33,377 nt of DNA, from the NCBI GenBank assembly GCA_022771765.1, contig JALELN010000081.1, forward strand, positions 1 to 33,377. Reading direction: 5' to 3'. Source of the stretch: Lachnospiraceae bacterium (GTDB lineage Bacteria; Bacillota; Clostridia; Lachnospirales; Lachnospiraceae). Under the pieces are notes generated by a model, which saw only the letters and a program-made list of their open reading frames with translations, ran no database searches and was not told the DNA's origin. A program made the position numbers and the translations under genes. Positions 5,843 through 29,943 of the stretch are shown one piece after another. The stretch's first letter is position 1. Each line of letters opens with the position of its first letter.

Positions 5843-5921
5843 GTCAACCACTCGGCAAGACATTATCCGGCAGTCTATTATGCTTTCCGGGTAAATCACA
5901 CAACCCACAGCTGTCAAGCGT

Positions 5922-6046
5922 GAAAATGAAACACCGTTTTTGCTCGATTCCCCTACCCTCGTCGCGGCATGTCAAAATATACATCTGTGGTAATTGCAAC
6001 TGCCTTGCTCGGTCGGGCAAAATCGCAAAAGCCGGTGTTCATTTTC
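5922..6046. repeat. Dispersed structured intergenic element, copy A
   Basis: Outer inverted arms GAAAATGAAACACCG (5922-5936) and CGGTGTTCATTTTC (6033-6046). Core blocks TGCTCGATTCCCCTACCCTCGTCGCG and CTTGCTCGGTCGGGCAAAATCGCAA recur in copy B with different outer arms. Confidence 0.85.
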
Positions 6047-6059
6047 TACGTTGCAGCTG

Positions 6060-6185
6060 CTATACGTTATCTCCATGTGTACCCGTCGCATAAACGACCT
6101 GCGGGATAACGCCTCGCCGAGGATTCCATCCGCTAGTTTCCCTTTGCAGTAGCTGTTTGTGGCAAAGCGATACGTTTTCTGCCAC
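6060..6185 (-). other. Small ORF (41 aa, GTG start) or coding-like repeat remnant: V/M-AENVSLCHKQLLQRETSGWNPRRGVIPQVVYATGTHGDNV
   Basis: Manual translation; shares Q-x-[VL]-YATG-x-x-G-[DE]-N-[VI] with the small ORF at 22590-22724. Confidence 0.35.
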
Positions 6186-28980: not shown

Positions 28981-29037
28981 ATAATAATACTCCTAACTAT
29001 GTCCGGTAATGTTGCTTACCTTTTTCGTCTTGCGCCC

Positions 29038-29072
29038 ATTAGATCATGAGCGATATCAGCCCATGATCTAAT
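29038..29072. repeat. 11-bp perfect inverted repeat in the secA leader: ATTAGATCATG-N13-CATGATCTAAT
   Basis: Left arm 29038-29048, right arm 29062-29072; about 60-90 nt upstream of the secA ATG. Confidence 0.85.
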
Positions 29073-29192
29073 TCGCCGCTCGTCAATCATGCCAGCATGT
29101 TGACTCGTTTGCGCTCATTATATCTTAACACGATTGCACGCATTTCACAAGTGGCAGTCATGTAAAGGTTTTGTGAACGTTTTGTGACGCTA

Positions 29193-29530: not shown

Positions 29531-29656
29531 AAAAAATGCACGCATAGGTTGCTCGATTCCCCTTCCCTCGTCGCGCCCTTTCTATTCTTCATCTACGCAA
29601 GAATGAAGGTGCTTGCTCGGTCGGGCAAAATCGCAACCTTATGCGTGCATTTTTTT
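29531..29656. repeat. Dispersed structured intergenic element, copy B (probable bidirectional terminator context)
   Basis: Outer arms AAAAAATGCACGCATA / TATGCGTGCATTTTTT. Core blocks TGCTCGATTCCCCTTCCCTCGTCGCG and CTTGCTCGGTCGGGCAAAATCGCAA shared with copy A; inner hairpin ATTCTT/AAGAAT; T-tracts on both strands. Confidence 0.87.
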
Positions 29657-29665
29657 ACTATTTTC

Positions 29666-29767
29666 CTATTCTTTCTTGCTTCGCGCTGCCAACCGAAGAT
29701 CCGGACATATTTCATCAACTGCGACTTTTGTCTGGCGAAGTGCGAGCGATTCGATAGCCTTCTTCAT
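29666..29767 (-). other. Small ORF or coding remnant (33 aa): MKKAIESLALRQTKVAVDEICPDLRLAARSKKE
   Basis: Manual translation; no convincing RBS; the only ORF-like signal in this gap besides hairpins. Confidence 0.3.
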
Positions 29768-29810
29768 GTCATAGCTGAAAGCCGCAGGCTATGTGTGCGA
29801 AGGAACCTAC

Positions 29811-29831
29811 CGAACTGCCACTGGCAGTTCG
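29811..29831. repeat. Perfect 9-bp hairpin CGAACTGCC-act-GGCAGTTCG
   Basis: Direct reading; a second stem CATAGC...GCTATG lies at 29770-29793. Confidence 0.75.
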
Positions 29832-29943
29832 CCACGGATGCATGGCAACATCGAGCCAAGGCTGAAGGATTCGCGAGACACCGACAGGCAATCGGAGCAG
29901 TCTGATGAAAGGCTGTCCGGAGATACGGCGGCAGTGCCTACAA

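Follow-up and report, generated by a model that had tools for sequence, protein, structure and literature searches.

A genus-limited family of dispersed hairpins in Lachnospiraceae with a near-invariant internal loop and a probable role as bidirectional terminators

The REP/RAYT systems (RAYT, REP-associated Y1 transposase) are an example of dispersed hairpins that contain mismatched or bulged bases and are recognised in the form of single-stranded DNA. In pneumococci, the dispersed repeat SPRITE forms a hairpin with the shape of a terminator, which is enriched between convergent genes and lies near gene 3' ends (PMC3049150). In that source the family is defined by sequence, through an HMM, and its members have an 18-bp duplex and a long U-rich tract; their co-option as terminators has been proposed, and the repeats are found inserted into one another (PMC3049150). 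The BOX repeat of streptococci, described in the same paper, is a modular stem-loop in which the number of inner modules varies between copies and between strains (PMC3049150). In Neisseria and Haemophilus, inverted DNA uptake sequences occur in terminators (PMC2267715, citing Kingsford et al. 2007).

The hairpins described here were met in a stretch of 33,377 nucleotides of a Lachnospiraceae genome, hereafter the window. Two copies of the element lie in the same orientation on the plus strand, at 5922-6046 (copy A) and 29531-29656 (copy B), exactly where they had been predicted. Copy A consists of outer arms, an internal loop (TCGA at 5944-5947 on the 5' side, AATC at 6021-6024 on the 3' side), an inner stem TTCCCC/GGGCAA and an apical module with an insert of ~37 nt. 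It is located between two co-directional nucleotide-sugar genes, at the centre of a larger palindromic repeat on the plus strand, E2 (about 5880-6101; ATGCTTTCCGGGTAAATCAC ... ACCCGTCGCATAAACGACCTG), and the same locus is nearly empty (16-43 bp) in the genomes G002, G009 and G005. Copy B, with an A-rich 5' arm and a T-rich 3' arm, begins 12 bp past the stop codon of a gene for a TSCPD-domain protein (PF12637; 29225-29518, plus strand) and shows the same loop (TCGA at 29553-29556, AATC at 29629-29632). Downstream of it lie a third element, described below, and a convergent gene for an ABC-transporter ATPase (PF00005; 29996-30757, minus strand). Upstream of the TSCPD gene, at 29028-29130, a stretch of ~90 bp with many copies of 80-90% identity in most genomes of the genus was also observed; it holds ATCATGAGCG...CCCATGATCT and ATCATGCCAGCATG palindromes.

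A repeat finder recovered the two cores shared by copies A and B as the direct-repeat families D3 (81%, 42 nt) and D4 (88%, 34 nt), flanks included, and the arms of copy B as the inverted repeat I2. Compared with dinucleotide shuffles, A and B fold with z-scores of -4.6 and -7.3, respectively, on the plus strand and of -3.6 and -8.3 on the minus strand, and none of 200 shuffles folded as well. The outer arms are indeed unlike between the two copies and pair within each of them. They had been called swapped, but have rather diverged with compensation, or have been replaced. The cores themselves (TCCCCT...CCCTCGTC and CTTGCTCGG), which the original prediction took as the constant part, are present in A and B; however, they largely represent one of several interchangeable apical modules, and what nearly every copy keeps is instead the internal loop adjoining them.

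Side-by-side comparison of the copies resolves the element into five layers. The outer arms, of ~20 bp, are almost perfectly paired and have little sequence in common except for their A-rich 5' and T-rich 3' ends. The internal loop lies ~20 bp up the long hairpin and consists of 5'-TCGA-3' opposite 5'-AATC-3', or of TCCGA opposite AAGTC; the extra C on one side is accompanied by the extra G on the other in 39 copies and fails to be so in two, a concordance that was counted by hand and then tested. Above it stands a short inner stem, TTGCCC/GGGCAA, which covaries to TTGTGC/GCACAA, TTGACC/GGTCAA and TTGCAC/GTGCAA. The apical module is mostly CCTCGTCAAGCTCGG and at times CTCCGCTTCGG, CAAGCCCGCCAATGCGGG or a plain short loop. 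Optional inserts form the fifth layer: the centre of ~37 nt that copies A and B have, and a module of 50 nt confined to these hairpins in the window's genome and reversed in G002. The apical region is the least conserved part, being swapped, trimmed or enlarged among copies and in some cases oriented differently at orthologous sites; loss or exchange of apical sequence is frequent (L032, L051, L055, and L029 against its G007 ortholog, with which it has arms and loop in common).

Pairing retained without sequence identity, the central claim of the original prediction, receives strong support from an alignment of 32 sequences trimmed to the arms, the loop and the inner stem. In this alignment, pairing holds in 88.5% of the cells and 25 of the 27 pairs show changes on both sides, compared with 16.6 compensatory pairs in shuffles. 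Compensatory cells number 180, whereas shuffles give 47±6 and sliding the partners gives no more than 57, figures which are not to be read as probabilities because the sequences had been picked as hairpins and some are orthologous. Five columns are invariant (T22, A37, A38, T41 and C42, in the numbering of the first sequence), and four of these are unpaired bases of the loop. A near-invariant unpaired motif amid paired arms that change freely suggests that something recognises the motif.

The loop can be followed independently of the apex. A descriptor that requires only the internal loop and long pairing arms gave 24 matches in ~2.06 Mb, whereas five altered motifs gave none in the same sequence. 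Seven matches fall in 275 kb of G000 and 14 in 236 kb of G002, densities that are not genome averages because the samples included regions picked for known copies; two more were found in G007 and one doubtful place in G003, and there were none in G005 or in the out-group G013. Two of these matches have an unrelated apex and unrelated arms: L276 in G002, and the third element of the window (about 29702-29919, minus strand). The latter, a ~190-bp repeat unrelated to copies A and B, has long arms that pair, and it shares their internal loop; on the minus strand the loop is TCCGA/AAGTC, at plus-strand positions 29892-29896 and 29723-29727. Its relatives have been amplified to about 20 copies in the sister genome G009. 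E2, in turn, is a second dispersed palindrome (ATGCTTRCCGGGTAAATCACGCGG ... CCGCGCGAACCCGTCGCATAAAC) whose outer arms are variable yet complementary; it occurs with a hairpin of the copy-A type in its centre (L001, L003, L007) and without it (L091, L092, L096, L097). Further palindromes, GGTGTCTGACACC / GGTGTCAGACACC, flank several G002 copies (L057, L059, L062, L130) as an additional outer inverted repeat.

In the window's genome, a search with the right core returned 12 places. The covariance model R1, built from eleven copies, gave 32 matches at E≤10, a number that includes weak matches and opposite-strand duplicates, and about 24 at E≤5.2e-5; the family thus has at least 24 strong members there, A and B among them. 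In sister species the number ranges from 1 to 23 according to the model used, and some lack the element altogether. A second model, R2, built from the covarying alignment and more structural than the sequence-heavy R1, matched 17 places in G000, 13 in G001, 9 in G002, 10 in G003, 7 in G007 and 23 in G008, some of which represent one hairpin matched on both strands. R2 found none in G004, G005, G006 and G009, in three other genera of the family or in six genomes of another family, and across 249 genomes of the family it matched the window's genus and one marginal place. An exact scan of GTDB r220 retrieved two genomes of the window's genus, with one locus each, together with two cyanobacterial matches taken as chance, the pattern being so short. 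A strict pattern for the minimal form produced scattered single matches across the family, which were likewise judged to be chance since the hairpin is not formed. The impression that the element recurs throughout Lachnospiraceae is therefore not borne out: among about 250 genera of the family, models and patterns match one only. A tandem hairpin in another genus (TTGCTCCGTTTCCCTCGCTTCGCTCAGTCCAAAAGTCGC, L047 in G019) has a similar internal-loop motif and long arms, and matches the model weakly.

Outside the family, only the internal loop was found, with a different apical stem, in one genus (g221) of another family of the same order. The pattern CTCCGRTTN{8,38}CAAAAGTCG, run over 392 genomes of the order, gave 8-25 copies in each of the four g221 genomes sampled (G194, G264, G279 and G356), while the reversed pattern gave scattered single matches only. 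Nearly all g221 copies among the matches listed read CTCCGRTTGGTGC...GCACCAAAAGTCG, a nearly identical minimal hairpin that contains this internal loop. The g221 copies are known from the core pattern, and R2, which was trained on the window's genus, does not match them. Rfam returned nothing credible at default or permissive thresholds, and blastn against phage and plasmid records found no match; pattern scans of IMG/VR gave either none or two matches that are not hairpins of this type. No such elements in Lachnospiraceae were met in the open-access literature, which is weak evidence, subscription papers being mostly outside its scope.

The position of the copies in the genome is far from random. 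When each ortholog group is counted once, 25 copies are flanked by convergent genes, 12 by co-directional genes and none by divergent genes, according to rough ORF calls in which the neighbours of copy B were set by hand; about two thirds of copies are thus found between convergent genes, against a baseline of 14% for gaps of 40-600 bp. The hairpins typically lie 5-30 bp from the stop codons, which leaves scant room for a further terminator. Runs of T at the right edge have a mean length of 4.6 and runs of A at the left edge one of 4.2. As far as sequence goes, the copies have the stable stem and the U-tract just behind a gene that mark an intrinsic terminator. The proposal of a terminator-like element or transcript end agrees with where most copies sit, and those between convergent genes look like, and probably serve as, the bidirectional terminator of both. 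Copy A and other co-directional copies have no obvious terminator position. The opposite outcome, arms without covariation and random positions inside genes, was looked for and not seen.

The two strands give different indications. Among arm mismatches read on the written strand, A.C exceeds G.T by 22 to 8 when independent loci are counted (p 0.016; p 0.17 in a sign test per copy), and therefore the wobbles fall on the complementary strand. Pyrimidine-pyrimidine mismatches likewise exceed purine-purine ones (21 against 1), several of them inherited by related copies. The complementary strand has GA(C)UU facing UC(G)GA in the loop, where tandem G.A pairs could form. The longer T-run, in contrast, lies on the written strand in 22 cases and on the complementary one in 11. 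Mismatch types thus favour the complementary strand and T-runs the written one, and we refrain from naming a single RNA strand as the acting one; the terminators are taken as bidirectional, with neither strand preferred.

The reading that we favour, with some reserve, is that A and B belong to a dispersed hairpin family limited to one genus, whose members stand mostly at convergent genes and probably serve there as bidirectional terminators, their loop presumably being recognised by a factor. The structure, the position, the conservation of the loop, the exchange of modules and the dispersal are all read directly from the copies. Termination itself would be what keeps the arms paired, in both directions of transcription. 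The loop may be retained because the folded strand is recognised by a trans-acting factor, which might be an RNA-binding protein, a nuclease or a single-strand-specific recombinase; a search for the factor gave no candidate. The apex would be left free for trimming, swapping and invasion. As to the route of spread, we infer that the elements travelled as non-autonomous repeats that settled at terminator positions, where they would do little harm and could be used as terminators.

Orthologous sites make gain or loss of the core at the apex of a terminator visible. At the copy-B locus, the element takes a minimal form in G003 (CTGC-TCC-GCACCTTACGTGC-GAAGTC-GCAG) and is inverted, with unrelated arms, in G007, while three elements are present in G002. 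The other sequences, found there in G001, G004, G005 and G009, lack the motif, and several of them are hairpins. Sites without the internal loop are mostly plain terminators. The G003 ortholog of L030 is one whose lower stem clearly matches (AAGAGAAGCG...CGCTTCTCTT), and a weaker resemblance is seen for L050 against G003 and for L025 against G005. Terminators beginning AAAAAGAG are common in the genus, and part of this stem sharing may therefore be common style.

Such plain terminators, and the differences in orientation, arms and number at the copy-B locus of G007 and G002, are also what would be left by a purely selfish mobile element that moves as a single strand. The loop would then serve as the hairpin recognition site for a transposase or recombinase by which the core is inserted into hairpin loops, and the terminator role would be a by-product of tolerated insertion. 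This explanation, which we consider unlikely but worth serious attention, also accommodates the spread of copy numbers among congeners, from 0 to more than 20, the amplification of a repeat with a related loop in G009, the recent arm-sharing subfamilies of G002, and nesting, both of copy A within E2 and of the 50-nt module within the apex. However, no mobiliser was found, and no target-site duplication was seen in the flanks examined, the orthologous empty sites being too diverged for comparison. A RAYT or other Y1 transposase is not supported as mobiliser, since Y1 transposases do not track the copies: none was found in the draft assemblies of the carriers G000, G007 and G003, an absence that is not absolute, and G002 has some. 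In addition, the loop bases persist at orthologous loci despite changes of arms and apex, which requires either selection or repeated re-insertion. The idea that arms are always newly captured target hairpins is weakened by the recent subfamilies, which carry their own. For the same reason, the contrast with MITEs was drawn too sharply: conserved terminal inverted repeats are indeed lacking, the arms being unrelated across the family, but within recent subfamilies the arms are shared. Mobility and structure are not alternatives here, because in G002 and G009 the recent subfamilies are dispersed together with their arms.

Compensatory changes can also arise without selection on RNA if the repair of quasi-palindromes, templated by the hairpin, keeps the arms complementary while gene conversion spreads the apex and nothing recognises the loop, and the frequent apical deletions and swaps are in line with such a process. 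Correction of this kind should, however, repair the mismatches of the internal loop as well, and these are the most conserved bases; the placement between convergent genes and the presence of the loop in unrelated repeats and in another family would also be left unexplained, which makes a mutational artefact highly improbable. A classical trans-acting small RNA or riboswitch class would account for the strongly conserved structure, but it is the explanation that we find hardest to credit, given that Rfam gives no match even at permissive thresholds, that most copies are downstream of the two genes that flank them and hence are not 5' leaders, and that a seed or aptamer would be expected in the apical region, which is the least conserved part. 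To our knowledge, the loop bases fit neither the kink-turn nor the hammerhead core.

Beyond the reading as a family of probable bidirectional terminators, a wider proposal can be made only tentatively: the TC(C)GA/AA(G)TC loop, or its G.A-pairing complement, might be the recognition signal of some machinery and define a hitherto undescribed class of hairpins. These would occur in unrelated dispersed repeats of two or more families within a single order, with their sequence free elsewhere, and would often be terminators. The analysis separates the constrained parts of the element (the pairing of the arms and a small unpaired motif) from the free ones (the arm sequence and the apex), and it identifies a specific motif whose binding partner can be sought. 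Should there be such a partner, terminators and dispersed repeats would be linked with each other and with a factor binding RNA or single-stranded DNA in gut Firmicutes. Families of this kind are missed by sequence-driven repeat finding: R1 found 1 copy in G003 and 3 in G008, where R2 gave 10 and 23 matches.

Among the systems introduced above, the REP/RAYT hairpins are similar in being dispersed and in having mismatched or bulged bases, but the arms of the present family are not conserved, and no Y1 transposase was found in the carriers G000, G007 and G003. DNA uptake sequences offer the likeness of a motif read by another machinery and borne in terminator hairpins; as described in the cited source, the recognised sequence is the stem itself, whereas here the stems are free and an unpaired internal motif is constant. 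BOX resembles the family in its modularity, although its modules are recognisable by sequence and, in the account cited, only modestly enriched between convergent genes, while the family described here combines free arms with a constant loop. The likeness to SPRITE, in kind only and as judged from its description, extends to dispersed multi-copy hairpins with the shape of terminators, to enrichment between convergent genes near 3' ends and to nesting; that description includes neither a constant internal loop amid free arms nor a loop common to unrelated repeats. Variable arms around a constant internal loop common to unrelated repeats are, in the accounts cited, described for none of SPRITE, BOX and DNA uptake sequences. 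What the window's genus presents is SPRITE-like terminator-repeat biology, and its new feature is the shared near-invariant internal loop.
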